The notes under the pieces: model-generated
The model's input: only the letters and a program-made list of their open reading frames with translations
The model's database searches: none
What the model was told of the DNA's origin: nothing
Program-made: the position numbers and the translations under genes
Origin: an uncultured Acetobacteroides sp.
GTDB taxonomy: Bacteria; Bacteroidota; Bacteroidia; Bacteroidales; ZOR0009
Assembly (NCBI RefSeq): GCF_963678165.1
Contig: NZ_OY782755.1
Span: forward strand, 1,240,001 to 1,304,000
DNA: 64,000 bases
Direction of reading: 5' to 3'
Shown here: positions 22,461 through 63,253 of the stretch, in pieces
Layout of the letters: each line of letters begins with the position of its first letter
Position numbering within the stretch: the stretch's first letter is position 1

Positions 22461-22675
22461 GCCTGTGAAAGTTTGATTCTAGCTTGTAAAACATGAGTTA
22501 TTGTAGGTAAAACATGCATTTCGGTATGGTAAATGTGTTTTTCAGTGGGTAAAAGTCACTTTCCTGTAGGTAAAAGTATCTTTCTGGTGGGGAAAAGCCT
22601 CCTTCCTGCAGGTGAAAGTTACTCTTCTGTGGGTAAAACTTGTTTTCTACAGGTGAAAATCTCTTGCCGATGGCG
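22461..22675. repeat. Degenerate tandem array A, about ten units of ~21 bp
   Basis: Core (T/A)GGTAAAA is found at 22464, 22484, 22505, 22527, 22547, 22568, 22589, 22611, 22631 and 22651, with spacings of 20-22 bp (mean about 21). A shared unit is about TGTAGGTAAAAGTNNCTTTCC. The array ends at the stop codon of the DMT transporter (22676-22678). Because the period is a multiple of three, open frames of seven-residue repeats run through it on both strands, but they show no coding sense. Confidence 0.85.
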
Positions 22676-23590
22676 CTACAGAAAGAAAAGGCCAACTCCC
22701 GCAATGGCAATCAGTGCCCCGATAACCTCCTTTGACGTCACCTTTTCTTTGAATAGAAAGATGGCCGCTGGAATGATGAGGATGGGCATTATGGACATGA
22801 TGGTGGAGGCAATGCCTGTTGATGTATGCTGTATGGCAAATAGCGAGAGGGATACTCCCAGAAAGGGGCCAAACACCGAGCCAATGGCAACCACGCCTAC
22901 AACCTTCGGATTTTGGACAGACTGAAAGAACTTCGGCCACTGCCTGATGAAAAAGAAAACTAAAGCAAAGCCAACCAGTGCCGCAATAGCCCTGATTTCC
23001 GTTCCCTGAATGGCGTTGTAGCTGCCAATGCCGTACTTGCTTAGCACCAGCCCAAATCCTTGTCCGAATGCGCCACCAAAGGCAAGAAGAATGCCCTTTA
23101 GCGGATACGAAAGCTTGAGTTTCCCATTCTCGGTTCCATTTTCACCGTTGTCGGAGGGGCGCTCCAGAATCACTAGGGCAATTCCGCTAAGGGTTAAAGC
23201 CATTCCCAGCAGGCTGGTTGCCGACATCGTTTCACCCATGATCAGCCAGCCGAAGATGGCCGCAATCGGCGAACTGAGTGTCATTACCAGCATACCAACG
23301 CGCGCTCCAACCACAACGTAGGCCTGAAAGAGGCAGAGATCGCCAAATACGAAACCAACTAGGCCAGATAGCGACAGCCAAAGTATGTTGTGCGAAGTAG
23401 CGTTAACTGGTAAGAAACTTCCGTAGGTAAAGTAGCTGTATGCCGAAAGAAGTACAATGGCTATGAGCATTCGGATCATGTTAACGTTTACCGACCCAAT
23501 CTTTTTCCCTGCTATTTGGTAGGTTATCCCTGTAATCGTCCAACAGAATGCGGTGACAAGAGCCGCCAACTGCCCAATGTGGTGTGCCAT
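22676..23590 (-). CDS. DMT-family EamA transporter
   Basis: 304 residues from ATG at 23590. The frame extends to 23623, but the promoter-like TAAATTTG at 23613-23606 lies between, so translation from the longer start is unlikely. Ten transmembrane helices are expected, in two EamA halves. N half: HHIGQLAALVTAFCWTITGI and WLIMGETMSATSLLGMALTL. C half: LVFFFIRQWPKFFQ, IPAAIFLFKEKVTSKEV and ending IALIAIAGVGLFFL-like (GALIAIAGVGLFFL). The paired E-x-x-x-x-x-G motifs in both halves are typical. EamA proteins export metabolites; the substrate is unknown. It stands alone in its strand between two repeat arrays. Confidence 0.85.
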   Translation of the reverse strand: MAHHIGQLAALVTAFCWTITGITYQIAGKKIGSVNVNMIRMLIAIVLLSAYSYFTYGSFLPVNATSHNILWLSLSGLVGFVFGDLCLFQAYVVVGARVGMLVMTLSSPIAAIFGWLIMGETMSATSLLGMALTLSGIALVILERPSDNGENGTENGKLKLSYPLKGILLAFGGAFGQGFGLVLSKYGIGSYNAIQGTEIRAIAALVGFALVFFFIRQWPKFFQSVQNPKVVGVVAIGSVFGPFLGVSLSLFAIQHTSTGIASTIMSIMPILIIPAAIFLFKEKVTSKEVIGALIAIAGVGLFFL

Positions 23591-23605
23591 TAAAATGAAT
23601 TTTGG

Positions 23606-23613
23606 CAAATTTA
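23606..23613 (-). promoter_or_regulatory. -7 element for the DMT transporter
   Basis: On the minus strand the sequence is TAAATTTG, a full match to the Bacteroidota TAnnTTTG element, 16 bp before the ATG at 23590. That would leave a leader of about 9 bases. No TTTG at -33 is seen. Confidence 0.6.
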
Positions 23614-23691
23614 CAATTCTCAAAAAAATACGAGCCTCGCTTTAAGAAAAATACAGAAATTATCCCAAGGGTGACTCTCTTGGATTAGGCT

Positions 23692-23922
23692 GTGTATCGT
23701 GCGTTTGTGATAGTATATCGTACGTTTATGATAGTATACCGTACAATATGTGTAGAAAACCGTGTGAAAGTAGTAATGTATCGTGTAGAATTGTTAATGA
23801 ACCGTGTTAAAATGCAAAAGAAACGTTTAAGTACAGCTATTAGACGTGTATAATAATCAAAAATACGTGCATTTGATGTATAAATACGTGTAAAACGAGC
23901 AAAAATACGTGTGATTTGCAGA
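23692..23922. repeat. Phased tandem array B, eleven 21-bp units with CGT cores
   Basis: CGT begins at 23698, 23719, 23740, 23761, 23782, 23803, 23824, 23845, 23866, 23887 and 23908: eleven cores exactly 21 bp apart, with no insertion or deletion over 210 bp. The core is CGT followed by G or A, mostly preceded by TA or AC, while the other bases of the unit have diverged widely. The array lies in the divergent space between the DMT transporter and the flavin reductase gene. It contains no plausible coding frame. Confidence 0.92.
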
Positions 23923-24002
23923 TAAAGCTAAAAAACATATGAGCTGCAATACCAACCTTTTTCTGCTCTTTTAGCTGGCTACGTAGATTTTTTACCATCA
24001 AT

Positions 24003-24010
24003 TATTTTTG
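24003..24010 (+). promoter_or_regulatory. -7 element for the flavin reductase gene
   Basis: TATTTTTG matches TAnnTTTG. It lies about 90 bp before the chosen ATG at 24102, and after array B. No -33 TTTG is seen at the expected place. Confidence 0.45.
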
Positions 24011-24101
24011 CAGTAAAATGAAAAAAAAACGGAGCAATAGCATGTATTGTTGTTAAAACATTTTAATATTGCCAATAGTAGAAACCCTTAATGATGACGA
24101 T

Positions 24102-24602
24102 ATGCTAAAAAAAGTTGATATAAATGAGGTAAAGAAAAGCGCCACTAAGCTTATAGGGAAAGACTGGATGCTAATTACCGCTGGCAATCCAGACAATTGC
24201 AATACAATGACGGCTTCGTGGGGAGGATTTGGAGAACTTTGGAATATGCCCGTTGTGATGATTTTTGTTCGCCCATCTAGGTTTACGTACAGCTTTGTTG
24301 AAAGCGAAGATTACTTTACGGTGTCATTCTTCGATGAGAAGTATCGTAGCACGTTGCAGCTATGCGGAACGGTATCAGGCCGTAAGGTGGAAAAGATAAA
24401 GGAGGCCGGCTTGACCCCTGTTCTTTCGGAACATGGAAGCACCTATTTCGGGGAAGCTAAACTGGTATGCGAATGCCGAAAAGTATACTTTGCCGATATC
24501 GATCCAGCCAATTTCCTTGAGGAGAAAATAAAGAAGTTTTACCCTCATAACGATTACCATCGCATGTTTATTGGGGAAATTGTGAATACGTACATGAAGT
24601 AG
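24102..24602 (+). CDS. Flavin reductase-like (FMN-binding) protein
   Basis: 166 residues from ATG at 24102; a TTG-start extension from 24069 is less likely. The fold is seen in TKLIGKDWMLITAGN at residues 13-27 and NTMTASWGGFGELWNMPVV, the FMN-binding loop of the flavin reductase-like (FMN-binding split barrel) family, followed by FVRPSRFTYSFVESEDYFTV. The C-terminus holds EAKLVCECRKVYF and HRMFIGEIVNTYM. Such proteins bind FMN and may act as flavin or metal reductases. It is followed by a membrane protein gene on the same strand (66 bp gap). Confidence 0.8.
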   Translation: MLKKVDINEVKKSATKLIGKDWMLITAGNPDNCNTMTASWGGFGELWNMPVVMIFVRPSRFTYSFVESEDYFTVSFFDEKYRSTLQLCGTVSGRKVEKIKEAGLTPVLSEHGSTYFGEAKLVCECRKVYFADIDPANFLEEKIKKFYPHNDYHRMFIGEIVNTYMK

Positions 24603-24668
24603 GGAGATTTATATCTTCCTCTTTTTTGATTATAATCTTGGGCTGCATTTAAAATTAATTGTATTTGT

Positions 24669-25220
24669 ATGTTCGCACTTCGAAGATGTCGACGAACTCT
24701 TCCTTATGGATTAAAAGATGTAGAGTTTTACCTCTATCTTTTAGTCTTTGTGCTATCGTACCTACTGCTAAAAGAGATACTCACCTGCCTTCCTGGCGGG
24801 TGTAGTTACTTTTATCCGCAGCTTGTTGCCGTGATAGTTGGCACCATATTTTTTGGATTTGAGTTTGGTTTGATAAATGCGGTTGCTCCCCCTTTGCTAT
24901 TTTTCTTTTTTATTGGGGCAGATACTTCCTTTTTGGAGCTAGAGCTAACGCGTGAGGTGCTCGTTTTTATACTAGTCGTAGCTGCGTTGGTGTTCCGTAG
25001 GATTACTCCCAAGTTCTGGAATTTCTTTATCCTAATCGTTATTGCGGAGGTGGGGGCAATGCTCGTCCTGCTGGTGGCAGGTGGCGAATTTCTCATCTTG
25101 CTGAAACAAGCGGTATTCTTATTGCCAGGAATGGCTTTGGGGAGCTTGCTTTCGCTTGCCCTGCTGAAGGCCTTATGTGCGATAGAGAGTCGTAGTATTG
25201 ATCAATGTCGTAGAAAATAA
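24669..25220 (+). CDS. Small integral membrane protein
   Basis: 183 residues, with a short basic N-terminus (ALRRCRRTLPYGLKDVEF) and about five hydrophobic segments (YLYLLVFVLSYLLLKE, LVAVIVGTIFFGFEFGLI, VAPPLLFFFFIGAD, VLVFILVVAALVF, NFFILIVIAEVGAMLVLLVA, FLLPGMALGSLLSLALLK). The layout recalls small ECF-type or biotin/queuosine-type S components, but no motif proves it. Function unknown. A strong palindromic terminator follows. Confidence 0.65.
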   Translation: MFALRRCRRTLPYGLKDVEFYLYLLVFVLSYLLLKEILTCLPGGCSYFYPQLVAVIVGTIFFGFEFGLINAVAPPLLFFFFIGADTSFLELELTREVLVFILVVAALVFRRITPKFWNFFILIVIAEVGAMLVLLVAGGEFLILLKQAVFLLPGMALGSLLSLALLKALCAIESRSIDQCRRK

Positions 25221-25222
25221 AG

Positions 25223-25244
25223 GAGGGGGTCAATTGACCCCCTC
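25223..25244. terminator. Palindromic terminator between converging genes
   Basis: GAGGGGGTCAA / TTGACCCCCTC is a perfect 22-bp palindrome at 25223-25244, between the plus-strand membrane protein (ends 25220) and the minus-strand galK (ends 25262). T tracts are short, but the stem is very stable and serves both directions. Confidence 0.75.
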
Positions 25245-25261
25245 TCTAATTATCTAATTAT

Positions 25262-26410
25262 TTACGAAATCTTTCTAGCGCCATCGCTGATGACTACATC
25301 GTAAACGGTAGGCTTTTTCCCGAATTGCTTTTCGAATTGAGCTACTGCTGCTGCAACAAACTCGTCGTGGTTGGCCTCGGCAACAACGTTGATGGTGCAC
25401 CCACCAAAGCCGCCGCCCATCATTCTGGCACCAATTACTCCGCTAACCGACTTTGCCACATCAACAAGGAAGTCGAGTTCCTTGCAGCTAACCTCGTAGT
25501 ACTTGCTGAGCCCTTCGTGAGAGCCGTACATCTCCTTGCCAAACGAAAGGATGTCGCCTTTCTTTAGCGCTTCGCAGGCCGCGTTAAGGCGGATGTTCTC
25601 CTTCACCACGTACTCGCAGCGGTTGTAAACCACAGGGCTAAGCTCCGCCTTTACTTCGGCAAGCATTTCGAGGGTAACATCGCGCAGGCTTTCTACTTTA
25701 GGATGTCTCTTGATAATCGTAGCAATGCCTTCCTCGCATTGGGCCCTGCGAACGTTGTACTCCGAAGAAGCCAACGAGTGCTTAACGTTGGTGTCGAGTA
25801 GGATTACCCTGTATCCATCAAGTTTAAAAGGAACCAGCTCGTAATCCAACGAACGGCAGTCGAGCTTCATCAGCATGTCCTTCTGCCCATGCAGCGAGGC
25901 AAACTGGTCCATAATTCCACAGCGTACACCTGCATAGTTGTGCTCGGCTAGCTGACCAACCTTAGCCAGCTGCATGCGGCTTAGACCAAAGCCATTCATG
26001 TCGTTAATGGCAAAGGCAAAAGCGCTCTCAAGTGCTGCTGATGATGATAGTCCGCCGCCAAGTGGAATGTTTCCTCCAAATACGCAGTCGAATCCAGGAG
26101 TCGTAAAGCCTAGCGCCTTAAGCTCCATGATAACGCCTAGGATGTAGTTGGCCCAGGCATATGGAGTTTTTTGTCCGTTTGCTACAAATGAGGTTTCCTC
26201 GTTGTAGTCGATAGACCTTACGTTGAAAGATTCGGTGCCGTTAGGCTTAACCTCAAGGATGATAGCCTTGTCGATAGCACCAGGAAGAACGAAGCCAAGG
26301 TTGTAGTCGGTGTGTTCGCCAATGAGATTCACACGGCCAGGAGCAGCGTAAACTGCTCCGGTGGTGTGAAACCTTTCATTGAAAGACTTTCTAACTGTTT
26401 CCTTTAACAT
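25262..26410 (-). CDS. galK: Galactokinase
   Basis: 382 residues. It phosphorylates alpha-D-galactose to galactose 1-phosphate with ATP. GHMP signature motifs are all present: PGRVNLIGEHTDYN (residues 24-37, with Arg26 and Asp35), GGLSSSAALESAFAF (about 122-136, ATP loop) and MMGGGFGGCTINVV (about 332-345). The catalytic Asp lies in GIMDQFASL (about 168-176). Length is typical. It is the last gene of the galactose operon, 15 bp after the symporter gene. Confidence 0.97.
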   Translation of the reverse strand: MLKETVRKSFNERFHTTGAVYAAPGRVNLIGEHTDYNLGFVLPGAIDKAIILEVKPNGTESFNVRSIDYNEETSFVANGQKTPYAWANYILGVIMELKALGFTTPGFDCVFGGNIPLGGGLSSSAALESAFAFAINDMNGFGLSRMQLAKVGQLAEHNYAGVRCGIMDQFASLHGQKDMLMKLDCRSLDYELVPFKLDGYRVILLDTNVKHSLASSEYNVRRAQCEEGIATIIKRHPKVESLRDVTLEMLAEVKAELSPVVYNRCEYVVKENIRLNAACEALKKGDILSFGKEMYGSHEGLSKYYEVSCKELDFLVDVAKSVSGVIGARMMGGGFGGCTINVVAEANHDEFVAAAVAQFEKQFGKKPTVYDVVISDGARKIS

Positions 26411-26425
26411 TTTGTGATGTTGGTA

Positions 26426-28057
26426 TTACCACCAAATGGTGTAGATTACTATAAGAAATAAACAGATTAACGCTGCAGATACTTTAAACCTAGTTGTGGT
26501 TTTAAATAGATCTGGAGTAATGATAATTGCTTTGTCGCTTGGTTTGTTACCCTCAGCGTATGCAGTAACAACCATTACTAAAACGCATAGGATAAACACA
26601 ATGCCCATACGGTCCATGAAAGGGATCTCAGGTGCTAAGAACTTCAATGCTACAGAGAAGATGAAAGTACCTAATGCCGCAAGAAGCGCACCGTTTGCAG
26701 ATGCCTTTTTCCAGAAGAATCCGAGTAGGAAGATGGCAAGAGCACCTGGGCTAACAAAACCGGTGAATTCCTGAATGAACTGGAATGCTTGATCGAGGTT
26801 CTGTAGCATAATCGCAATAGGGAACGCAATAATAAGAACTACACCAGCAGAGATTCTCCCGGTAAGAACAAGGTTGTTTTGCGATGCCTTCTTGTTGATA
26901 AATCCTTTGTAGATGTCCATCGTAAAAATGGTTGAGATGCTATTAAGCATTCCGGCAACAGCACCAATAATTGCAGCAACCAGAGCAGCAAAAGCCAACC
27001 CTTTAATACCAGTAGGTACAATGTTAGAAAGCAACCAAGGATAAGCCTCGTCGGGTTTGCTGATGTCTGCATTTAGTGCAAATGCAACAATACCAGGAAT
27101 AACAACGATTAGGGGGAGAAGAAGTTTAAGGAATCCGGCAAATACTAACCCTTTTTGGGCTTCGTTGATGCTCTTTGCAGCAAGCGCACGTTGAATGATG
27201 AATTGGTTACATCCCCAGTAGTATAGGTTGGCAATCCATAATCCACCAACAAGAACGCTAATACCAGGAAGATCCATGTAGGCATCCTTGCTGCCACCCT
27301 TACCATCGGCTATCATGTGCTGACCTTTGGTTAGTACCATATCGAAGTGGTCCTTGTGATCTCTGGTAAGTGTTATGAATCCATCGAGAGGATTTCCGTG
27401 TCCAAGTGCTTTTAGGGCAACATAGGTGGTAACCAAGCCACCTCCAATTAGGAATACTACCTGTACAACATCGGTTACAGCTACTGCTTTTAATCCGCCA
27501 AAGATTGCGAACGAAGCAGCGAGCAATCCAAGCACAATGATACCAATCCATAATGGATCAACAACGACACCCGATATGAGCAGGTTTTGTCCTTCAAAAA
27601 GAACGTTCTTAACGGTAAGGGCACCTAAGTAGAGGATAGAAGCAAGGTTTACGAAAACGAATACGATCAACCAGAATATGGCCATAACCGTCTTTACGCG
27701 CTTGTCGTAGCGTTGCTCTAGGAACTCGGGCATGGTGTAAATACCCATCTTTAGGAAGATTGGTAGGAAGAATACCGCTACGATAATCAGCGTTAGTGCT
27801 GCCATAAACTCGTACGATGCAATACCCATTCCTATCGCATAACCCGATCCCGACATGGCGATAAACTGCTCGGCCGAAATGTTACTTGCAATAAGCGATG
27901 TGCCAATAACCCACCAACTAAGGCTCTTGTCCGCAATAAAGTACTCAGAGGCATTCTTTTTTTTACCCCCCTTGTTGCGCGAAACCCACAATCCGACGCT
28001 TATAATAATCAAAATATAAGCCATCAGGACAACGTAATCCAATGTTGAAAATGACAT
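26426..28057 (-). CDS. Sodium/sugar symporter (SSS family)
   Basis: 543 residues with about fourteen transmembrane helices. It resembles SglT/vSGLT-type transporters: the N-terminal YIVLMAYILIIISVGLWVS-like segment (YVVLMAYILIIISVGLWVSR), the sodium site region SWWVIGTSLIASNISAEQFI, and YYWGCNQFIIQRALAAKS in the middle. Such proteins take up galactose or glucose with sodium, which fits the neighbouring kinase, mutarotase and regulator. The start lies 5 bp after the galM stop. Confidence 0.88.
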   Translation of the reverse strand: MSFSTLDYVVLMAYILIIISVGLWVSRNKGGKKKNASEYFIADKSLSWWVIGTSLIASNISAEQFIAMSGSGYAIGMGIASYEFMAALTLIIVAVFFLPIFLKMGIYTMPEFLEQRYDKRVKTVMAIFWLIVFVFVNLASILYLGALTVKNVLFEGQNLLISGVVVDPLWIGIIVLGLLAASFAIFGGLKAVAVTDVVQVVFLIGGGLVTTYVALKALGHGNPLDGFITLTRDHKDHFDMVLTKGQHMIADGKGGSKDAYMDLPGISVLVGGLWIANLYYWGCNQFIIQRALAAKSINEAQKGLVFAGFLKLLLPLIVVIPGIVAFALNADISKPDEAYPWLLSNIVPTGIKGLAFAALVAAIIGAVAGMLNSISTIFTMDIYKGFINKKASQNNLVLTGRISAGVVLIIAFPIAIMLQNLDQAFQFIQEFTGFVSPGALAIFLLGFFWKKASANGALLAALGTFIFSVALKFLAPEIPFMDRMGIVFILCVLVMVVTAYAEGNKPSDKAIIITPDLFKTTTRFKVSAALICLFLIVIYTIWW

Positions 28058-28062
28058 GCGTG

Positions 28063-29112: not shown

Positions 29113-29202
29113 GTGATGGCGTCTCTCTTTGCTTTTGTTAGGCTTGGAAAGAGCAGTGCTTACTGCCTTTTAGGTGGCAGGCACCGCTCTTTGTCCCTAT
29201 GT

Positions 29203-30111: not shown

Positions 30112-30147
30112 CTTATTATTTTTATTGCTGTTGTTTGTAATGCTCGA

Positions 30148-31155: not shown

Positions 31156-31174
31156 AAGGTTCCCTCTTTTAACT

Positions 31175-31406: not shown

Positions 31407-31419
31407 AATTAGAATTTTA

Positions 31420-46118: not shown

Positions 46119-46262
46119 TTTGTTAGGTTGTATTGCTTTATATGTAGGCATCTCGAATATTCGTGGTGCAGATAGTTGCCTAGCGCTAGAAGCTAAACGG
46201 TGTGAAAGTATTTAATTCGGTAACTTTCTACAAATATTTGACACCTTTTTCGTTTCAAATTA

Positions 46263-46372
46263 AAAGCGTCGGGTGTGGTAGCAGGCGTAAAACGGTAGTA
46301 CGGAGCGTGAAAAAAGTTGCCATGAGCATCAAAAAATGGTCACGATGCGCGAGAGCTGCGATGCTTCGCCAT
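46263..46372. repeat. Possible tandem array F, five to six ~21-bp units
   Basis: GCGT or a close variant occurs at 46266, 46285, 46305, 46326, 46347 and 46368, with spacings of 19, 20, 21, 21 and 21 bp. Units such as GCGTGAAAAAAGTTGCCATG and GCATCAAAAAATGGTCACGA share the same plan. It lies in the ~430-bp divergent space between the SusR-like gene and the gene at 46548; no gene is seen in that space. It is weaker than arrays B to D. Confidence 0.5.
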
Positions 46373-46547
46373 GCATCCGGCATCGGCCTCACCTGTAAAA
46401 GACCATCTCCGTTCGTCTATGGGAACCGCCTCTGCCCAACAGGGTCTCTATCTCGCTCGCTGATGCTAAACCGAAGCGGATATTGTGTATCTTCGTTTTT
46501 GGGTAGAAGCCTACCCGCTAACGCATAACCTACAAACTTGCTACGCT

Positions 46548-47021
46548 ATGATACAGGACAACCTCGCTAAAATCACCTTTACCCCCGACGAGGTGGCGGC
46601 ACTCGACGGTGCGCTGGCCACCATCGAGCAGGTGCTCGAAAAAAAGATGGTAAGCCTTACCCCCAAGCAGCGCAGGCAGTACAGCCGCGTGAGGTACAAC
46701 ATGGAGAATTGGGTGAACAAGGCCACTGGCTACATCGCCAACAACGCGGAGCTGACCCCCTCGTTTGTTGATGTCGGGCAGCTGCGGCTCGACATGGAGA
46801 CTCACCTGATGCTAAACCCTCGTATCGATAAGATGGAGGTACTCCTTCAAGGGATTAAGGATACTAACCTGCTGTTGGGTTCCGACATCTACAACGCCTG
46901 CATCTCCTTCTACCGCTCGGTTAAGCTGGCCTCTTTGGGCAATACCCCTAGCGCCTCGGCTATTTACGACGACCTAAAGAAGCAGTTCTCGGGTGGCCGT
47001 AAGAAGGCTGCCGAGAAGTAG
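46548..47021 (+). CDS. Conserved protein of unknown function
   Basis: 157 residues from ATG at 46548, which starts MIQDNLAKITFTPDEVAALD; the frame is open from 46485, but that part is less likely. The protein is all helical (LATIEQVLEKKMVSLTPKQ, then NWVNKATGYIANNAEL, LDMETHLMLNPRIDKMEV). The length and spacing of helices suggest a four-helix bundle or repeat. Basic tail (SGGRKKAAEK). Function unknown. Confidence 0.7.
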   Translation: MIQDNLAKITFTPDEVAALDGALATIEQVLEKKMVSLTPKQRRQYSRVRYNMENWVNKATGYIANNAELTPSFVDVGQLRLDMETHLMLNPRIDKMEVLLQGIKDTNLLLGSDIYNACISFYRSVKLASLGNTPSASAIYDDLKKQFSGGRKKAAEK

Positions 47022-47118
47022 CCTTGGCTTGGGGGCAGCTCTAGGCCCTGCTTTGGGTGGTTGGGTACGCCGCCGAGGGCGTTCTTCCGTATCTCCGCTA
47101 CCGTTAAAATCCATCTCG

Positions 47119-47470
47119 AAGCATCCTTAAGGTATCTCCAATATACCTTTGAGGTATCTTTGATATACCCTTAATGTATATCGGATATACGTTCGATGTA
47201 TTGTTGATATACCTTTGAGGTATCTTTGATATACCATCAATGTATATCGGATATACCTTCGATGTATCTTTAATATACCCATAATGTATATCTGATATAC
47301 GTTCGATGTATTGTTGATATACCCTTAATGTATATCAAAGATACGTTTGAGGCATTATTGATGTACATCATGGGGGACCGATATACGGTCGAGGCATCTT
47401 TGACATGCCTCTAGTGCAGGTCAAAGATGCCTCGATTGTATTCCGATATACCCCAAATACATCGTCGGCT
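47119..47470. repeat. Phased tandem array C, about fifteen 22-bp units
   Basis: ATATAC or a close variant begins at 47141, 47163, 47185, 47207, 47229, 47251, 47273, 47295, 47317, 47339 and 47361, each exactly 22 bp apart, then 47381, 47403, 47425 and 47446. Units are half palindromic (GGTATCTTTGATATACC), so hairpins can form. A higher-order copy of about 110 bp (five units) is visible (47185 and 47295 blocks). It lies between converging genes, upstream of the pruA terminator. Confidence 0.92.
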
Positions 47471-47516: not shown

Positions 47517-47541
47517 AAAAAGGGCTCCCGAAGGAGCCCTT
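47517..47541 (-). terminator. Terminator after pruA
   Basis: AAGGGCTCC (47520-47528) pairs with GGAGCCCTT (47533-47541) over a 4-base loop; on the minus strand TTTTTAC follows. It lies 11 bp after the pruA stop. Confidence 0.88.
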
Positions 47542-47552: not shown

Positions 47553-49184
47553 TTATTCCGCTAGGAATGGGTATTTATAGTCGGTAGGTGGATTTAGGGT
47601 CTCCTTAATCGAGCGGGGGTTGGTCCAGCGGATCAGGTTGAGGTAGCTACCCGCCTTGTCGTTGGTTCCCGAAGCGCGTGCGCCGCCAAAGGGCTGCTGT
47701 CCCACAACGGCACCGGTTGGCTTATCGTTGATGTAGAAGTTGCCAGCGGCATACTTCAGCTTTTCGAAGGCCACCTCGGTAGCGTAGCGGTCGTTCGAGA
47801 AGATCGATCCGGTTAGCGCGTAGGGCGAGGTGGTGTCAACCAGCTCCAGCGTCTCCTCGTACTTGTCGTCCTCGTACACGTAAACGGTGAGCACCGGCCC
47901 GAAGATCTCCTCCTCGATGGTTACGAAGTGGGGATCGTTGGCCAGGATAACGGTAGGCTCAACGAAGTACCCCTTGCTCTTATCGTAGCTTCCGCCAAAT
48001 ACAATCTCGGCATGCTTCGTGTCGCGGGCTTTTTCGATGTAGCTGGTGATGGAGTCGAAGGCCGCCTCGTCGATAACCGCGTTGACGTAGTTGCTGAAGC
48101 TGCGCACATCGCCCACCTTGATCTCGGTCAGCATTTCGCCGATGCTATCCTTAACGGCATACCACAGCGACTTAGGCAGGTAGGCGCGCGATGCGGCCGA
48201 GCACTTCTGCCCCTGGTACTCGAATGATCCACGAACCAGCGCAACGGCCACCTGCTGTGTGTCGGCCGATGGATGAACCATCACGAAGTCCTTGCCTCCA
48301 GTTTCGCCAACAATCTTGGGGTACGAGCGGTAGTGAGGCAGATTCTTGGCAATCTCCGACCAGAAGGTGTTGAACGTCGAGGTAGAACCCGTAAAGTGAA
48401 CCCCAGCAAACTCGCGGTGGGCGAAGATCTCCTTGCCAATAACCGACCCCTTTCCGGGGATGAAGTTGATGATGCCATCGGGCAGCCCAGCCTCCTTATA
48501 GATCTGCATCAGGTAGTAGTTGGATAGGATGGCGGTGGTAGCCGGCTTCCAAACCACGGCATTACCCATAATAGCTGGCGACATGCACAGGTTGGAGGCA
48601 ATGGCGGTAAAGTTGAATGGGGTAACCGCAAACACGAACCCCTCCAGCGGGCGGTACTCCATGCGGTTGATCACGTCGGTGGTCGGCGACATGGGCTGGT
48701 CGGCATAGATCTGCGACATGAAGTAGGCGTTGAAGCGAAGGAAGTCGATTGTTTCGCAGGCAGAGTCGATCTCGGCCTGGAAGGCATTCTTGCTTTGGCC
48801 CAGCATGGTGGCGGCATTCATAACGGCCCTATACTTCTTGGAGATGAGTTCGGCAACGCGAAGGGCGATGGAGGCTCTATCTATCCAAGAGATTTTCTCC
48901 CATTTCTTGCGTGCCTCAAGGGCCGCTTCGATGGCCATCTTAACCTCATTTTCGCCGGCCAAGTGGTAGGTTGCCAAAACATGGTTGTGGTCGTGCGGCA
49001 TAACAACCTTACCGGTGTTGCCCGTTCTGATCTCCTTGCCCCCAATTATTAGTGGAATTTCGATCTGTTGAGAAGACATCTTTTCGAGTTCGGCAACCAG
49101 CTCGCGGCGTTCTGGCGAGTTGGGCGCGTAGCTTAGAACAGGCTCGTTCTTTGGCTTCTCGAAGCTAAATACTGAACTATTCAT
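47553..49184 (-). CDS. pruA: L-glutamate gamma-semialdehyde dehydrogenase
   Basis: 543 residues. It oxidises glutamate semialdehyde (1-pyrroline-5-carboxylate) to glutamate with NAD, the second step of proline use. The aldehyde dehydrogenase fold is clear: catalytic Cys328 in EYQGQKCSAAS and Glu294 in KIVGETGGKDF, with the NAD part VFAVTPFNFTAIASNLCMSP. The C-terminal QQPFGGARASGTNDKAG is typical of this family. It belongs to the group 1 P5C dehydrogenases without a proline dehydrogenase domain. It is a single-gene unit with a terminator after it. Confidence 0.95.
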   Translation of the reverse strand: MNSSVFSFEKPKNEPVLSYAPNSPERRELVAELEKMSSQQIEIPLIIGGKEIRTGNTGKVVMPHDHNHVLATYHLAGENEVKMAIEAALEARKKWEKISWIDRASIALRVAELISKKYRAVMNAATMLGQSKNAFQAEIDSACETIDFLRFNAYFMSQIYADQPMSPTTDVINRMEYRPLEGFVFAVTPFNFTAIASNLCMSPAIMGNAVVWKPATTAILSNYYLMQIYKEAGLPDGIINFIPGKGSVIGKEIFAHREFAGVHFTGSTSTFNTFWSEIAKNLPHYRSYPKIVGETGGKDFVMVHPSADTQQVAVALVRGSFEYQGQKCSAASRAYLPKSLWYAVKDSIGEMLTEIKVGDVRSFSNYVNAVIDEAAFDSITSYIEKARDTKHAEIVFGGSYDKSKGYFVEPTVILANDPHFVTIEEEIFGPVLTVYVYEDDKYEETLELVDTTSPYALTGSIFSNDRYATEVAFEKLKYAAGNFYINDKPTGAVVGQQPFGGARASGTNDKAGSYLNLIRWTNPRSIKETLNPPTDYKYPFLAE

Positions 49185-52622: not shown

Positions 52623-52641
52623 ATTATAGTATTCGGATAGG

Positions 52642-57176: not shown

Positions 57177-57964
57177 AATCGCGTATCCTACTTTGGGGGC
57201 TTCTGCTGCTTGCCAGCTGCCAGCTGAGCGAGGATGTGAGCGTAACGCTTCCGCCTCAGCAGCCAAATTTTGTGGTGGAGGCAATCCTGCGGCCTGGCAT
57301 GCCCATGGAGCTGATGCTCCTCGAAAGTTCGCAACTGAAAGGTGTTGTAAGTCGGAGCTACGTGAAGGATGCCTTCGCCTGCTTTGTGCTTGGTGGCGAC
57401 ACCATCAAGCTTAAGTACCAGTTTTACACCCGGGCCGACGACAAGATGACGGTTAACTACACCAGCAAGGTGCTGCTGCCTAACAGCGAGAGCGGTCGCC
57501 TGCGGCTATACATCCGAAAGGGGGGCGATACCTTAACCGCCGAGGCCCAATTTATCAAGCCTGTTGCGATAAGGGCATGTGCGGTTGACGGTGTAAGCGT
57601 TGATGCCACCGTTGCTAACACCTTCGGGGATGATGACCGCTTCTTCCAGCTCCATGCCTACCTATACCTGCAGAAGAAGTGGATAGGGCGCTACTCCCGG
57701 ATCTACGACTTGAGAGACAACCGTACGGAGGAGTTGCCGCTGCATCTGGAGGTGGAGAATATACCGCGAGACTCGGTGAAGGTGGTGGTGTGGCACATCT
57801 CGCGCCAGTACTACGAATACATCTACACGTGCATCCGCTCGCTGGAGGCGTACCACGATCTGTACACCGTCCCCACGCCAATTAAGACGAACATTTTTGG
57901 AGGAGTGGGGGTGTTTACCGTTGTAGCGGAGGATAAGCGGGCGATGAGAAGCGTTTACCCGTAG
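57173..57964 (+). CDS. DUF4249 lipoprotein
   Basis: 263 residues. Lipoprotein signal MKSRILLWGLLLLASCQLSE. The N-terminal part (QQPNFVVEAILRPGMPMELM) and the sequence ending EAYHDLYTVPTPIKTNIFGG then VGVFTVVAEDKR are typical of DUF4249, found nearly always next to a TonB receptor. The protein may aid transport on the surface. Overlaps the receptor by 4 bp. Confidence 0.9.
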   Translation: MKSRILLWGLLLLASCQLSEDVSVTLPPQQPNFVVEAILRPGMPMELMLLESSQLKGVVSRSYVKDAFACFVLGGDTIKLKYQFYTRADDKMTVNYTSKVLLPNSESGRLRLYIRKGGDTLTAEAQFIKPVAIRACAVDGVSVDATVANTFGDDDRFFQLHAYLYLQKKWIGRYSRIYDLRDNRTEELPLHLEVENIPRDSVKVVVWHISRQYYEYIYTCIRSLEAYHDLYTVPTPIKTNIFGGVGVFTVVAEDKRAMRSVYP

Positions 57965-57981
57965 AGCGCCTGCCACGAAAA

Positions 57982-58018
57982 AAGGAAGCCCCTCCGCAGA
58001 TCGAGGAGGAGCTTCCTT
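57982..58018. terminator. Hairpin terminator after DUF4249
   Basis: AAGGAAGCCCCTCC (57982-57995) pairs with GGAGGAGCTTCCTT (58005-58018) with one mismatch and a 9-base loop. Confidence 0.8.
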
Positions 58019-58092
58019 GTAGTAAAATTTTCTGCGAGGAAGAATGCTTTACATATTTAGATTGTACAGAATCTTCTGCTAAATATATAAAA

Positions 58093-58124
58093 AAGGGCAG
58101 CATCCCTAGAAAAGAATGCTGCCC
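58093..58124 (-). terminator. Terminator after the ABC permease
   Basis: GGGCAGCAT (58095-58103) with ATGCTGCCC (58116-58124), a perfect 9-bp stem; TTTTTTATA follows on the minus strand, 30 bp after the permease stop. Confidence 0.88.
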
Positions 58125-58154
58125 CTGCTGCCTGAGGTTAGCTTGTCAATTATC

Positions 58155-58949
58155 TTACACCGCCATCCGCTTGGTGCAGGCCCTGTACCACGAGGCTAGG
58201 GTGAAGAGTACGAAGAACCCGCCTACGGTGAGCAGCTCCTTTGCGGCGAAGAGGCCGCCGTGTGCGGCTGCAATCTTTTGGTACTCCATTCCGCTTACCA
58301 TTGGGTAGAAAGTGGGGATCAGGTAGGCGTACTCCCATCTGGCCACAATGGTGGTTACGATAAAGAGCGAGATGCCGATGCCCATGGATTTCACCTGATT
58401 TTTTACCTCAAAGCAGATGTAGTAGTAGACCGATAGGATGCCGAAGCTGCATACGAACACCTTGCTGAAGAGCGCAGCGCAGTGCTGCCACGGAATGGCC
58501 GCCAGGGTGAATCCGAGGTCGGGCTTGATGACGGCCAGCAGCAGCCCCGTTGCAATGGTGAGCAGCATCGTGAGCAGGTGGGCCGACAGGTTGAGCGTAA
58601 ACAGCATGGCCAACTTGCTCCAGAAGATTACGTGCTTGCTGTGGGGCAGGGTGTAGGCCAGTCTCCAGGTGGTGTTCTTGTGCTCGAGGTTCAGCAGCTG
58701 GCTGGCGAGCAGAATCAGGTACATCGGCAGGAACACCATGGCCGCGCTATTCCATATTTGGGTGATGAAGGGCAGCCAAGGATCTACCTTCGGGGAAAGC
58801 ATCAGGTGCCCCTTGAAGTAGAAGGCCAGAAGGTAGATGAACAGGATGAATACGGGGCCAAGGTAGGTCAGCCAGTAGGCGGCCGTCCCCCTCGACTTGA
58901 TGGTTTCGGCCTTAAACGCAGCGCCGAATTGCTGTAGTGCGGTTCTCAT
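58155..58949 (-). CDS. ABC-2 type permease
   Basis: 264 residues with six transmembrane helices (YLGPVFILFIYLLAFYF, NSAAMVFLPMYLILLASQLL, LFTLNLSAHLLTMLLTIATG, LFSKVFVCSFGILSVYYYIC, GISLFIVTTIVARWEYA, TVGGFFVLFTLASWYRA). It resembles membrane parts of ABC-2-type exporters and lantibiotic-immunity-like (EfiE/NisG) permeases. It is 93 bp downstream of the ATPase gene and forms a two-gene exporter with it. Substrate unknown. Confidence 0.82.
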   Translation of the reverse strand: MRTALQQFGAAFKAETIKSRGTAAYWLTYLGPVFILFIYLLAFYFKGHLMLSPKVDPWLPFITQIWNSAAMVFLPMYLILLASQLLNLEHKNTTWRLAYTLPHSKHVIFWSKLAMLFTLNLSAHLLTMLLTIATGLLLAVIKPDLGFTLAAIPWQHCAALFSKVFVCSFGILSVYYYICFEVKNQVKSMGIGISLFIVTTIVARWEYAYLIPTFYPMVSGMEYQKIAAAHGGLFAAKELLTVGGFFVLFTLASWYRACTKRMAV

Positions 58950-59042
58950 TGTTGATCGGTTTTTAGATTTGCGGCAAACGATTTGAGTTGTGCAAGATTA
59001 CATGCTCAAGGCATTTTGCATCTAATGTCTTGATAATTGCGT

Positions 59043-59957
59043 CTATTTACTATCCTCGAATAGCTTCATGTACATCTCCTCGAGGGTTTGGTGCTCCTTG
59101 TGGATGCCGAATACCTCCACGCCCTTGGCGACCAGCCGATGGTTGCAGCGGGCAATTTCCTGGTCGGTGGCGTACTCAAATCCCACCTTAATGGAGCCAT
59201 TCTGCCGGATCTCCAGAGGCCTTTCGAGCACGCTACTGATGCCCTCGACGCTGCCCACGGTAAACCATACCCGCTTTTGGGTGGCAATGCGCTCTGTGAG
59301 CTGCTCGATGGGGCCCTCGAACACCGCCTGCCCTTGGTTGATGATGGAGAGGTGGGTGCATAGCTTCTCTACCTCCGATAGCAGGTGGCTGGAAACGAAG
59401 ATGGTGGTGCCCAGCTGCTGGTTGATGCGGATCAGCAGTTCGCGGATCTCGATGATGCCGTTGGGGTCGAGCCCGTTCGATGGCTCGTCGAGCACCAGCA
59501 GCTCGGGCTTGGGCAGCAGCGCCATGGCTAGGGCTAGCCGCTGCTTCATCCCCAGCGAGAACTCCGACACCTTTAGCCTCTTTGTGGCGCTGAGGCCAAC
59601 CAGCTGCAGCGCCTCGTCGATGCTCGCCTTGGGCAGGTCGTGGGCCAGGCGGACTACCTCCAGATTGTTGTAGGCCGTAAGGTGCTCGTAAAAGGTGGGC
59701 ATGTCGATTAGCGACCCGATGCGCGAGAGGATCGGAATTCTGGCCGTGCTGTACTGCTGCCCAAAGAGGGTTACTTCGCCCTCCTGCGCCTTAAGCAGGC
59801 CCATTACGATGCGGATGGTGGTACTTTTCCCCGAGCCGTTGGGCCCTAAGAATCCGTAGATGCTTCCCTGCGGAATGCGCAGCGAGAAGCGGTTGAGCAC
59901 CTTCACCCCGTTGGGGTAGGCGAACGTTGCGTTGGTTAACTCTACAATTGGTTGCAT
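59043..59957 (-). CDS. ABC transporter ATP-binding protein
   Basis: 304 residues. Walker A GPNGSGKST with Lys44, signature SLGMKQRLALAMALLP (about 135-150), Walker B LLVLDEPSNGLDPNG (about 154-168) and the H-loop IFVSSHLLSE. The C-terminal part (about 215-304) is a typical CcmA/NatA-type extension. It drives the exporter formed with the permease. Divergent from the two-component pair, which may control it. Confidence 0.93.
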   Translation of the reverse strand: MQPIVELTNATFAYPNGVKVLNRFSLRIPQGSIYGFLGPNGSGKSTTIRIVMGLLKAQEGEVTLFGQQYSTARIPILSRIGSLIDMPTFYEHLTAYNNLEVVRLAHDLPKASIDEALQLVGLSATKRLKVSEFSLGMKQRLALAMALLPKPELLVLDEPSNGLDPNGIIEIRELLIRINQQLGTTIFVSSHLLSEVEKLCTHLSIINQGQAVFEGPIEQLTERIATQKRVWFTVGSVEGISSVLERPLEIRQNGSIKVGFEYATDQEIARCNHRLVAKGVEVFGIHKEHQTLEEMYMKLFEDSK

Positions 59958-60234
59958 ACTTTATCGACGTTTAATTTTAAACTCTAGATCCCAGATTGCT
60001 GTAAGGCTTTGCTCGATGGTTGCCCTACAAATCCATCGCAAACATCACGCTTTGCCAGCGGCTCTTCAACTTTATTCGATAAATGAGTAGGATGGTGCGG
60101 CAAACGGCTAAAAGGGTTGCTGCCTGCCGTACTTGCTTTTGTGGAGGCCGTTCGTCGCAGCGCGGTGCGCTTTTGTCGAAAAGGGAGTCTCGTTTGCCGC
60201 CATTTTCCCTTACTTTGTGTAAAAAAAGAACGGA

Positions 60235-61275
60235 ATGGAAAAGGTGGTTCACTTTGCCCGGCAGCATGGTTTGGTTGTAGCAGCTCACCTGCTGATGATG
60301 ACGCTGCTGCTAATCGTAAGCTCGTTCCAAAAGTTTGTGCTGCTATTTGCTGTCAGCACCATTATTCCCATATACTTTAACCACTTTACGCTTATCCCAC
60401 GCTTGCTCAATCGGCGCCAGCTGTGGCGTTACATCGGCAATATTGTGCTGATGCTGGTGGTCTACTATGCGCTAATTTACCTGGTGATTGCGACCTCCTT
60501 CCACCTGGGGGAAACGTTCGGGGTGAATAAGTATCGCCCACAAGGGTACTTCGATAATATGTTCTTTGGAATGACCTCGTCGCTAACGATGCTGCTGATT
60601 ATTGTAGGTTTGGTTACCTCGATAATTCGGCTGCTGGCCGATTCGATGGCCGTATGCGAGATGCGGGAGCGGCTCTCCTCCATTGAGAGCGAGAAGGTGG
60701 CCGCCGAGCTTACCGGGCTCAAGTCGCAGATCAACCCGCACTTTTTCTTCAATGCGCTCAATAGCATCTACGCGCTATCGCTGGATGCCTCGCCGCAAAC
60801 CCCCGCCTACATCCTTAAGATCTCGGGGCTGATGCGCTACGTGCTCTACGAGTGCAACCAGCCCTTCGTGCCGCTGAGCAAGGAGGTCGAGTTTCTTCGG
60901 TCGTATATCGATCTGCAGGAGATTCGCCTTTCGGAGGGCAACCAGGTTCGCTTTGATGTTCGGGTTGACGACGACCAGCAGCCGGTTGCTCCGCTGCTCT
61001 TTCTTCCGCTGGTGGAGAACTGCTTCAAGCATGGGCTTTGCGGTGGTGCTAATGCTACCATTGGGGTGAGACTGCATGCCGATGGCGAATCCATCCGGTT
61101 TTATACGGAAAACCCGTGCAATCCGGCCGTCACCACCAAGGGCGATAGGGAGCGAGGTCGCATCGGCCTAAATAATGTGGCGAAGCGCCTAGAGCTGATC
61201 TATCCTGGAAGGCATGCCGTTTCGTACCAGGCAACCGATCGTATATTCACCTCCGAAATAACCATACAGCCATGA
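60235..61275 (+). CDS. LytS-like sensor histidine kinase
   Basis: 346 residues. Four transmembrane helices in residues 1-135 (LVVAAHLLMMTLLLIVSS, FVLLFAVSTIIPIYF, YIGNIVLMLVVYYALIYLV, MLLIIVGLVTSIIRLLA). The His_kinase motif LKSQINPHFFFNALNSIYAL carries His169. The ATP-binding domain has LFLPLVENCFKHGL and RIGLNNVAKRLELIYPG. No periplasmic sensor domain is seen. Its stop overlaps the response regulator start by 4 bp (ATGA). Confidence 0.93.
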   Translation: MEKVVHFARQHGLVVAAHLLMMTLLLIVSSFQKFVLLFAVSTIIPIYFNHFTLIPRLLNRRQLWRYIGNIVLMLVVYYALIYLVIATSFHLGETFGVNKYRPQGYFDNMFFGMTSSLTMLLIIVGLVTSIIRLLADSMAVCEMRERLSSIESEKVAAELTGLKSQINPHFFFNALNSIYALSLDASPQTPAYILKISGLMRYVLYECNQPFVPLSKEVEFLRSYIDLQEIRLSEGNQVRFDVRVDDDQQPVAPLLFLPLVENCFKHGLCGGANATIGVRLHADGESIRFYTENPCNPAVTTKGDRERGRIGLNNVAKRLELIYPGRHAVSYQATDRIFTSEITIQP

Positions 61276-62000
61276 ATGCTCGCTGCCTAATTGTTGATGA
61301 CGAACCGCTGGCCCAGCGCGTGGTGGAAAAGTATATCGAGCAAATGCCCATGCTTACCCTCGCGGGGAAGTGCTCTTGCGCCATAGACGCCGTTCCGTAC
61401 CTAAATGGTGGGGGCGTCGATCTGGTGTTCCTAGACATCAACATGCCCACCCTTACCGGGGTCGACTTTCTCCGCTCGCTTAGGAATCCTCCTTTGGTGA
61501 TCATCACAACGGCCTACCCCGAGTACGCCATCGAGGGCTTTGAACTCGACGTGGTAGACTACCTCCTTAAGCCAATCCCCTTCGAGCGCTTCTTTAAGGC
61601 GGTGAATAAGGCGCTCGATCGCCTACGCCTGGGTGCCGCACCGGTGGCGTTAGCGGCGATGCCTGTCCCCGAGCCGTTATCCGCCACCGAGAATGCCGTC
61701 CTGGCCGTTAAGGCCGATAAGCGCATCTACAAGATTCCTCATAGTACAATTCTCTTTATAGAAGGGCTGGGCGACTACGTAACCATCCATACCGTCAAGG
61801 GAAAGATCACCTCGCACGATACCATGAAGCGGCTGGAGGCCGAGCTGTGCCGCCCCGATTTTCTGCGAATCCACAAGTCGTACATCATTGCCGCTGGCCG
61901 GGTGGAGTACATCGAGGGGAATGCCGTAAAGGTGGGGGAGGAGCTTATCCCAATCGGCAAGAGCTACCGCGACGAGGTGCTGCCGCTGCTAGAGGGGTAG
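61272..62000 (+). CDS. LytTR response regulator
   Basis: 242 residues. Receiver domain with Asp9-Asp10 (IVDDEPLAQ) and phospho-acceptor Asp55 (VFLDINMPTLTG), then Lys in YLLKPIPF. A linker follows, with the LytTR DNA-binding domain at about 135-240 (ILFIEGLGDYVTIHTVKGKI, FLRIHKSYIIAAGRVEYIEG). It pairs with the kinase before it. LytTR regulators bind direct repeats near target promoters; the divergent ABC genes are likely targets. Confidence 0.94.
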   Translation: MNARCLIVDDEPLAQRVVEKYIEQMPMLTLAGKCSCAIDAVPYLNGGGVDLVFLDINMPTLTGVDFLRSLRNPPLVIITTAYPEYAIEGFELDVVDYLLKPIPFERFFKAVNKALDRLRLGAAPVALAAMPVPEPLSATENAVLAVKADKRIYKIPHSTILFIEGLGDYVTIHTVKGKITSHDTMKRLEAELCRPDFLRIHKSYIIAAGRVEYIEGNAVKVGEELIPIGKSYRDEVLPLLEG

Positions 62001-62043
62001 GCAATTTTGGCCTAGCTCCGCAATAAAAGTGGCATCCGTCTCG

Positions 62044-62078
62044 TTTGTTACCTGTAGAACCGTTTTTTCTTATATTTG
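62044..62078 (+). promoter_or_regulatory. Complete Bacteroidota-type promoter (-33 TTTG, -7 TATATTTG)
   Basis: TTTG at 62044-62047 and TATATTTG at 62071-62078, 23 bp apart, followed by the ATG at 62099. It sets the start of the barrel protein gene: an ATG-less extension from 62045 would lie inside the promoter. Confidence 0.7.
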
Positions 62079-62098
62079 TGCAAAAGATAAAAATAGCG

Positions 62099-62842
62099 AT
62101 GAAGAGATTATTACTTTTTTCTTTGGTAGGAATTGTTGGGATGCTAGGCGCCGGTAAGGCTCATGCCCAGCTGCACAACATGGGGCTTCAGATGTCGATT
62201 GTAAACCCCAAGGGCGACGCTAATAACAAAGGTGGGTTTAACAGCCTATACGGCGGGCTATTCTACGAGTACCGCTTTACAGGTGTTGATGTTGATAAGA
62301 ACGAGCTGCGCGACCACTTCGGCCTCGAGTTCGGATTGAACTATACTGAGTTTATCAAGAAAGGAACAGAGAGTGTCCCCTCTTCGAACCAGGCTTTTTA
62401 CACCTATTTTACGGAAATCAACGGGCGACCATACGCTAGTGTGAAGTCGAACAATAAGGGGGTGAACTTCTATGCTGCTCCAAAGTACTACGTAACGGTT
62501 TACCCAGAGTTGGTGGAGTTGTACGTGATGGGGAAGGTAGGGCTTCAATACCTAAATGGCGATAATACCGCAAGCGCTAAGCTTAGCAAGACGGTTAGCG
62601 CAACCAACCTGTTCTATGGTGCTTCATTGGGGCTAGAGGTAAAGCTGGGAACCGTTTTCGTTGGCGTCAACTATGGGTTTGACACCAATAGTCCCGAAAA
62701 GATAATGAAAAAGGTTGGCTACGACTTCCCTAATGCTGCACCTGGTGTAATACCTCAGTATAAGCCGTTCAACAACTACGACCTTTGGGGGAATACCGTG
62801 TTGGAGTTCAAGATTAAGGCGCTGCTCAACGCAAAGGACTAA
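62099..62842 (+). CDS. Outer-membrane beta-barrel protein
   Basis: 247 residues from ATG at 62099 (MKRLLLFSLVGIVGMLGAGK), signal peptide with AHA cut site. The mature part alternates strand-like segments (LYGGLFYEYRFTGVDVDKNE, GVNFYAAPKYYVTVYPELVE, LFYGASLGLEVKLGTVFVGV) and ends in NTVLEFKIKALLNAKD, as in eight-stranded OmpA-like barrels. Function unknown. A full promoter lies upstream and a terminator-like hairpin downstream, so it is a single-gene unit. Confidence 0.8.
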   Translation: MKRLLLFSLVGIVGMLGAGKAHAQLHNMGLQMSIVNPKGDANNKGGFNSLYGGLFYEYRFTGVDVDKNELRDHFGLEFGLNYTEFIKKGTESVPSSNQAFYTYFTEINGRPYASVKSNNKGVNFYAAPKYYVTVYPELVELYVMGKVGLQYLNGDNTASAKLSKTVSATNLFYGASLGLEVKLGTVFVGVNYGFDTNSPEKIMKKVGYDFPNAAPGVIPQYKPFNNYDLWGNTVLEFKIKALLNAKD

Positions 62843-62859
62843 TGTAACCACTATACGAG

Positions 62860-62887
62860 GAGGAGGCTTTCCGCAAGGGGCCTCCTC
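62860..62887 (+). terminator. Terminator-like hairpin
   Basis: GAGGAGGC (62860-62867) pairs with GCCTCCTC (62880-62887), loop 12 bases; TTCTGG follows, 18 bp after the barrel gene stop. Confidence 0.7.
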
Positions 62888-62938
62888 TTCTGGTATCTGG
62901 GGGGTATTCTTTCAATCCGTGCACGCCGCTAGTCTTCC

Positions 62939-63253
62939 AGAGCATGCATTTGACAATTCAGAGCATGTGGCTAGACTTTCAGAGCGTGCATTTGGCAATT
63001 CAGAACGTGTGGCTAGACTTTCAGAGCGTGCATTTGGCAATTCAGAACGTGTGGCTAGACTTCCAGAGCATGCATTTGGCAATTCCGAGCATGTGGCTAG
63101 TCTTTCCGAGCATGCATTTGGCGATTTAGAACATGTGGCTAGACATTCAGAGTGTGCATTTAGCAATTCAGAACGTGTGGCTAGACTTCCCGAGCATGCA
63201 TTTGGCAATTTAGAACATGCGGCTAAACATTCATAGAGTGCATTTGGCAGCTC
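62939..63253. repeat. Phased tandem array D, fifteen 21-bp units in a 42-bp alternation
   Basis: The core AGARCRTG places TG at 62945, 62966, 62987, 63008, 63029, 63050, 63071, 63092, 63113, 63134, 63155, 63176, 63197, 63218 and 63239: fifteen units, exactly 21 bp each. Units alternate between a GCATTTGGCAATTC type and a GTGGCTAGACTTTC type, giving a 42-bp dimer. Open frames of repeated seven-residue units cross it on both strands, as expected from the period. It lies between the barrel gene and the converging HAD gene. Confidence 0.93.

Follow-up and report, generated by a model that had tools for sequence, protein, structure and literature searches.

Intergenic arrays with a unit of about 21 bp and two linked small-protein families in Acetobacteroides and other Bacteroidota

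We analyzed tandem arrays in the intergenic DNA of an uncultured Acetobacteroides sp. (order Bacteroidales), starting from a window of 64,000 bp (G000:C1:1240001-1304000) in its 4.30-Mb genome, which is assembled as one contig. The arrays form an intergenic class that is defined by a unit of ~21 bp, occurring singly or as a 42-bp (41–44 bp) doublet, and that is kept at fixed loci in sister species. Two families of small proteins, unrelated to each other, show a strong linkage to them, which for one family extends over 20 family labels.

Arrays in the window and in the genus

The initial annotation had described four clear arrays (A–D) and a weaker one (F). For each region, lag autocorrelation was calculated, and its maximum over lags 12–69 was compared with those of 300 dinucleotide-preserving shuffles. 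Arrays A–D were real (z scores of 9.7–21.3), the observed maximum being reached by 0/300 shuffles in each case. Array F was dropped from the set, as region 46150-46420 was equalled or exceeded by 221/300 shuffles and its part 46271-46370 by 53/300.

No strand was assigned to any of the four arrays. Array A (22460..22673) has a period of 21 bp (also 42 and 63 bp) with about 10 units of 21 bp (z of 9.7 at lag 21), and is flanked by a Peptidase_S24-domain gene on the plus strand and an EamA transporter gene on the minus strand, both named from Pfam. Array B (23670..23926), between the same EamA gene and a flavin-reductase-domain gene on the plus strand, has a period of 21 (42) bp (z of 9.8 at lag 21); it was split into two pieces by Tandem Repeats Finder (TRF; rows 23695-23744 and 23844-23926), and the syntenic place in the sister species G002 holds no array. 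Array C (47101..47446) has a period of 22/44/66 bp with an 11-bp subperiod (z of 13.6 at lag 44 and 11.8 at lag 22). It lies directly 3' of a plus-strand gene at 46548..47021 (ATG at 46548; longest open reading frame (ORF) from GTG at 46485), which belongs to an unnamed, array-linked family of ~160-aa proteins and is referred to here as the partner gene, and an orthologous 44-bp array is present in G002. Array D (62893..63275) has a 42-bp period made up of two 21-bp halves, with a higher-order unit of 126 bp (lag 42, z of 21.3, and lag 21) and is placed between two convergent genes; the orthologous locus keeps an array in both G002 and a third genus member, G001, and two relatives with 72% identity occur elsewhere in the same genome. 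The units found by TRF were 21/42 bp in A, 21 and 42 bp in B, 22/44/66 bp in C, and 21/42/126 bp in D. Throughout the window, a match of at least 0.55 over 100 bp at lags 5–60 was reached only at 21, 22, 42, and 44 bp and, within C, at 11, 33, and 55 bp. Predicted ORFs of at least 120 aa did not overlap A, B, or C and overlapped D by 4%, in agreement with the intergenic place first reported.

A wider scan showed that the arrays are not confined to the window; the refuting outcome named in the initial annotation, their absence from other parts of the genome, was not observed. In 864 kb of the genome (the window plus 800 kb in four stretches, scanned at a loose threshold), 84 periodic arrays were found; the best lag up to 50 bp was 21 or 41–44 bp in 65, and in the lag range of 15–50 bp a period of 21/22 or 41–44 bp was assigned to 66. 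The resulting density of ~76 per Mb (66 in 864 kb) is far above the impression given by the window and extrapolates to roughly 330 arrays in the whole genome. Arrays of the same class made up 27 of 33 periodic arrays in 400 kb of G002 and three of four in 80 kb of G001, and a block-shuffled copy of the first 464 kb yielded none. A simple coding model placed 58 of the 66 class arrays between predicted genes, and arrays were somewhat commoner between convergent genes (26 of 64, versus 51 of 225 other intergenic regions; p = 0.006). Coding repeats were rejected as an explanation: 42 bp corresponds to 14 codons, but units of 41, 43, and 44 bp also occur, and most arrays lie outside predicted genes.

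The period of 21 or 22 bp, which had been taken as common to the family, holds for arrays A–D, but across the genome a 42-bp unit (41–44 bp), not one of 21 bp, is the most frequent. The mean identity autocorrelation of arrays with a period of 41–44 bp (55 from this genome and 23 from G002) peaked at 42, with minor peaks at 21 and 63; the typical unit thus consists of two ~21-bp halves that form a 42-bp doublet. Units of three helical turns (31–33 bp) and five turns (52–53 bp) were rare compared with those of two and four turns; a ~21-bp ruler therefore fits better than helical phasing as such.

Outside the genus, the class was a minor part of the periodic DNA: it accounted for only 3 of 11 periodic arrays in 400 kb from four genomes with the partner gene, and for 3 of 21 in the 720 kb taken from nine genomes where that gene was not found. 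A metagenome-assembled genome (Bacteroidales bacterium UBA5515, locus L054) carries two palindrome-rich 22/44-bp arrays (1397-1614 and 6312-6424) in 7.6 kb, and dispersed arrays are thus not restricted to the genus.

As for the other features of the window, array C has as its convergent neighbor an aldehyde dehydrogenase gene (47553..49184, minus strand; Pfam Aldedh, 8e-100), which served as the anchor for orthologues. A terminator-like hairpin with a T run, read from the sequence and attributed to that gene (47519..47541, minus strand), lies between the gene and array C, and G002 has a similar hairpin at this place. Array D is flanked by a 265-aa ORF without a Pfam match (62045..62842, plus strand) and by a HAD-like hydrolase gene (63260..63952, minus strand; Pfam Hydrolase, 4.6e-15). 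Positions 1-22000 contain mostly short ORFs in the same direction, a CLP_protease-domain gene, and the Peptidase_S24-domain gene (21043-21915), and this content suggests a prophage ending near array A. A short 21-bp array at 5067-5162 (z of 4.6; 0/300 shuffles), overlooked in the initial annotation, lies between the CLP_protease-domain gene and an ORF without a Pfam match, probably within this putative prophage.

Linkage of the arrays to two protein families

The unnamed family was picked because a member adjoins array C. At E ≤ 0.01, it has ten matches in this genome, nine in G002, and six in G001, and all three genomes of the genus thus carry paralogues. Each of the first 19 genus loci fetched had an array within 1.5 kb (19/19), with lags including 63, 65, and 84, although some of these loci are orthologous. 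In a stricter test (700 bp on either side of the gene, z > 6, and a period in the 21/42 class or its multiples), 24 of 25 genus loci were positive, the array being 3' of the gene in 16 and 5' in eight; the sole miss (L221) lies at a contig end with only 104 bp of 3' sequence.

In a profile search, the family was present in 23 of the 198 genomes searched within the order and in 26 of 296 in a draw from the phylum (genus members included). Outside the genus, 52 of 76 matches were extracted and all 52 were tested. A 3' array was present at 35 of them, invariably in the 21/42 class, and the positives came from 29 of the 45 genomes and from 20 of the 28 family labels represented; on the 5' side, z > 6 was passed at 4/52 loci, two of them in the class. 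Control genes were taken from 13 genomes with whatever follows them, unmatched for intergenic length, and had a 3' class array in 1/300 cases (four gene-bearing genomes; 12 with any lag) and 5/457 cases (nine gene-less genomes; 20 with any lag), giving Fisher probabilities of 3e-34 and 8e-36, respectively. A terminator-like hairpin was found between the stop codon and the 3' array at 26 of 51 loci, with a median gap of 97 bp, which disfavors the interpretation of the array as the 3' untranslated RNA of the partner gene.

The module of gene plus array occurs in changing gene contexts, and no further conserved neighbors were found when they were looked for. Several partner genes and many arrays occupy orthologous places in the sister species. 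At two orthologous loci of G002 and this genome (L230 and L231, both among the 25 genus loci tested), partial partner genes covering approximately profile positions 104–148 stand directly beside 42-bp arrays and are possibly decaying modules.

The protein has ~160 residues and is all helical, with one 55-residue helix, in an AlphaFold2 model built from 70 sequences with a predicted local distance difference test score of 94.7. Scans of Pfam, NCBIfam, PADLOC, PDB, and PHROGs (the last with 19 members) gave no consistent match, and no library family was matched by more than 2 of the 70 members at E ≤ 0.01. In Pfam, no family matched more than one member at this threshold, none was a transposase, and no catalytic motif was recognised. 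PADLOC gave weak matches to Cas3b in two members (best 8.7e-5) and Cas13-ApeA in one (5e-4), which were not consistent across the family. Phage and plasmid collections contained one distant plasmid homologue only, and 18 pattern matches in viral contigs yielded no confirmed case. A clear homologue in a gammaproteobacterium is encoded on a plasmid of Candidatus Thiodictyon syntrophicum (L361:2414-2881; 135 bits to the profile).

The second family emerged from paralogue clustering of 641 genes of this genome and was picked because five of the seven sampled members adjoined arrays. It corresponds to DUF6261 (PF19775), which three members matched at E values of 1e-34, 2e-26, and 1e-26 (93–120 bits against a cut-off of 27); the genome studied contains at least 18 matches to it. 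The genus yielded 38 matches, from which 30 loci were extracted for the test, and a class array was located 5' of the gene in 25, with one more locus having a 40-bp array; an array within 500 bp 5' was found for 48 of the 641 genes as background. After subtracting the five members already seen, 21 of the remaining 25 were positive. Outside the genus, DUF6261 was present in four other genomes of 247 drawn, where three of seven loci passed the 5' test, one of them with the array >400 bp off, and one more was just below the threshold; the support for its linkage outside the genus is thin. The 41-bp repeat >400 bp upstream at the DUF6261 locus L359 (G267) may be a different repeat. An hhalign comparison of the two partner families returned a probability of 1%, with no detectable homology. 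The literature search found no described function or array for DUF6261, the sole paper with this name being on another subject.

Of the 93 class arrays in the DNA sampled from the genus, about 20 lie beside a member of one or the other family (14 for DUF6261 and about six, including one gene fragment, for the unnamed family). The suggestion in the initial annotation that a protein is involved has thus gained a concrete lead in two unrelated linked families, but its proposal that helical phase is the thing read is unsupported.

Sequence, persistence, and symmetry of the units

The arrays had been described as lacking a common sequence, which holds for most of them but not for all: 77 of 122 array records matched no other (E < 1e-8), but array D has the relatives mentioned above, and the remaining 45 records fell into 16 clusters, the largest of five, many of them consisting of orthologous or duplicate records. 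The 77 singletons argue against one dispersed repeat family, and no array matched an Rfam family in a scan of ten sources (the window and nine loci).

Persistence was evaluated for 25 class arrays (63-bp units included) in the part of the genome syntenic with G002. Four lacked a syntenic pair; 14 of the 21 comparable arrays have a class array at the same place in G002, with the same period in 11 and a period differing by one base in three. At the other seven places, G002 has a periodic stretch of another lag in two cases and none in five. Nine of the 14 kept pairs were in one similarity cluster, and five had no detectable similarity.

Units were more self-complementary than column-permuted controls (mean z of −2.3 for 36 arrays and −2.2 for 24 arrays), and the unit consensus was palindromic at p ≤ 0.05 in only 19 of 93. 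Selection on a plain dyad is weakened as an explanation by this low proportion and by the lack of covariation among units. Folding revealed no strand preference (18 versus 16 outside the genus). In one of the five kept pairs without detectable similarity (1369284 in this genome and its counterpart in G002), inspection of the alignment by eye indicated a common stretch near the dyad and different arms on both sides.

Within units, a 7-bp component (one third of 21 bp) had z scores of 10.2 in 41 arrays of this genome, 5.3 in 20 arrays of G002, and 5.1 in 29 non-genus arrays; in the last set, the 10.5-bp component was equal to it at 5.1. Helical phasing by A-tracts alone was disfavored, since in the genus the 10.5-bp component does not dominate and a half repeat raises even harmonics. 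A minority of arrays shared short words. Repeats of TCCGA/TCGGA occurred in 15 of 80 arrays from the genus, where 2.5 would be expected, and in 11 of 38 from other genomes, where 0.5 would be; GGTTC/GAACC was repeated in 7 of these 38 (0.33 expected).

Interpretation and comparison with known systems

The arrays and the two protein families point to an undescribed two-part genetic system. Our literature search, outside which subscription papers and preprints lay, found no account of such arrays with these genes. The arrays are not CRISPR (clustered regularly interspaced short palindromic repeats) loci, as originally stated, since in the arrays inspected the units stand head to tail without spacers; the eight window neighbors include no cas-type Pfam family, although no genome-wide cas search was made. 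Iteron arrays at plasmid origins consist of helically phased direct repeats of ~20–22 bp that adjoin the gene encoding their reader protein; each replicon has one such origin, and each Rep protein a single sequence. The arrays described here resemble iterons in their directly repeated sites of this size (periods of 21/22 and 41–44 bp), but they occupy hundreds of loci by extrapolation, and the partner families are not Rep-like by Pfam.

The nearest systems found in print, as described in PMC4596501, PMC3116915, and PMC5086642, do not have period-fixed, sequence-free arrays with these partners. BrickBuilt and 464/PgRS of Porphyromonas gingivalis are intergenic imperfect direct repeats with units of 23 and 41 nt (and also of 22 nt in strain W83), described as miniature inverted-repeat transposable elements (MITEs) with a trapped repeat and having a shared leader, tail, and terminal inverted repeats (PMC4596501). 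They are likewise tandem, foldable, and found in a Bacteroidales genome, but they are copies of one element, in contrast to our arrays, which differ from locus to locus and accompany protein-coding genes. REPIN-RAYT systems, too, pair palindrome-rich repeats outside genes with a dedicated gene, itself adjoined by a repeat; there, repetitive extragenic palindromic (REP) sequences form one family per RAYT (REP-associated tyrosine transposase) and inverted doublets (PMC3116915), whereas ours are fixed-period tandem arrays without a common sequence. Neither the many copies of one palindromic family nor a transposase partner of the TnpA_REP type was found here. Type III toxin–antitoxin systems (ToxIN, AbiQ, and CptIN) place a tandem repeat array next to the gene of a small protein, separated from it by a terminator; the array is upstream and encodes the antitoxin RNA (PMC5086642). 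The array of the unnamed family is mostly downstream, behind a terminator-like hairpin and without strand bias, and the predicted all-helical fold is not that of a ToxN-like endoribonuclease; the DUF6261 array is 5', as in the type III layout.

We tentatively favor, at a probability of about 0.35, the interpretation that the arrays are DNA platforms read in a two-turn register. Gene and array would be one locus of a two-part system, in which protein molecules, attached at corresponding positions two helical turns apart, would build a long nucleoprotein segment of even spacing. The spacing would then be under selection and the letters only slightly so, and slippage or unequal exchange in whole units would homogenize each array and let its sequence drift. 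Partnerless arrays, the majority in the genus, may be bound in trans or by further, yet unrecognised proteins, and may act as local chromosome-organizing or insulating sites. DNA rather than mRNA is favored because of the hairpin between stop codon and 3' array and the absence of a strand preference in folding. A two-turn DNA platform would explain the fixed spacing with drifting letters, the indifference to strand, and the position behind a terminator. Its support also includes the linkage to both families, the prevailing period class, the persistence of arrays in G002, and the self-complementarity in excess of column-permuted controls.

Several results weigh against such a platform. Its weakest step is the role of the partner proteins as binders, and the protein–DNA contact is a step that we infer. 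The predicted structure of the unnamed family has no PDB match at E ≤ 0.001 (Foldseek), and the family is slightly acidic (median pI of 5.8, net charge of −1), with only the tail basic (+2); it is therefore not a typical DNA-compacting protein. The locus of the Candidatus Thiodictyon syntrophicum homologue lacks such an array, and protein and array are thus separable. No 3' array at z > 6 was found at 17 of the 52 non-genus loci, and about 73 of the 93 sampled genus arrays, array D among them, have neither partner adjacent. Dyad pairs displayed no compensatory change among units (62 observed versus 59.5 expected), and the 7-bp component is at least as strong within units as the 10.5-bp component. 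The platform leaves the lack of covariation and the acidic partner unexplained.

In a further-reaching reading, the two unrelated families would keep the arrays, beside their own genes and at hundreds of loci in one genus, as a self-maintaining period ruler, with the unit fixed near two (or four) turns and the letters free to drift; we consider this unlikely. Three rival explanations were weighed. To a similar extent, we doubt that a non-coding RNA made of repeats, working with the linked protein, is transcribed from the arrays as its template, as in type III toxin–antitoxin systems. The layout of a tandem array beside a small protein gene (PMC5086642), the excess self-complementarity, and the 5' position of the DUF6261 array, which is the expected side, argue for such an RNA; nevertheless, the array of the unnamed family was 3' in all 35 non-genus positives and often behind a terminator-like hairpin, neither strand consistently folded better, the scanned sources had no Rfam match, no PADLOC model matched more than 2 of the 70 members, and RNA hairpins offer no obvious reason for a fixed ~21-bp ruler.

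It also seems improbable that the arrays are selfish or domesticated repeats, amplified or maintained by the linked protein as REPINs are by RAYTs, that escaped and spread in the genus. This would suit the few gene copies and hundreds of extrapolated arrays, the partial partner genes beside arrays at L230 and L231, the changing contexts of the module, and the rarity of dispersed class arrays in the four gene-bearing genomes outside the genus, but most arrays are singletons, which copies of a mobile repeat would not be, neither a transposase-like match nor a catalytic motif was recognised, and in the sister species many of the arrays, along with several partner genes, have orthologous positions. 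Less likely still are ordinary minisatellites, generated by slippage in unconstrained intergenic DNA and linked to the genes by hitchhiking. Higher-order units (63, 66, 84, and 126 bp) are expected from slippage or unequal exchange, arrays are commoner between convergent genes, where insertions harm least, and similar repeats of 41, 23, and 22 nt are described in P. gingivalis (PMC4596501); slippage, however, sets no single period for unrelated sequences, and one period class is found again and again next to these genes under 20 family labels, but rarely at the genes around them, and is kept while the letters change.

Non-coding repeats of bacteria are usually classified by sequence, as REPs, MITEs, or CRISPR, whereas in these arrays it is the period that is conserved next to the same genes throughout a phylum, with changing letters. 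Should a protein read or maintain this period, the arrays would represent a new way of marking chromosomes and the first handle on two uncharacterised families; if a period ruler is true, they would be nucleoprotein platforms addressable by spacing and not by sequence. If the cause is instead a mutational ruler of ~21 bp, it would bear on the birth of tandem repeats. In both cases, the question can be tested through the linked gene in any member of Bacteroidota that is in culture and carries the module.

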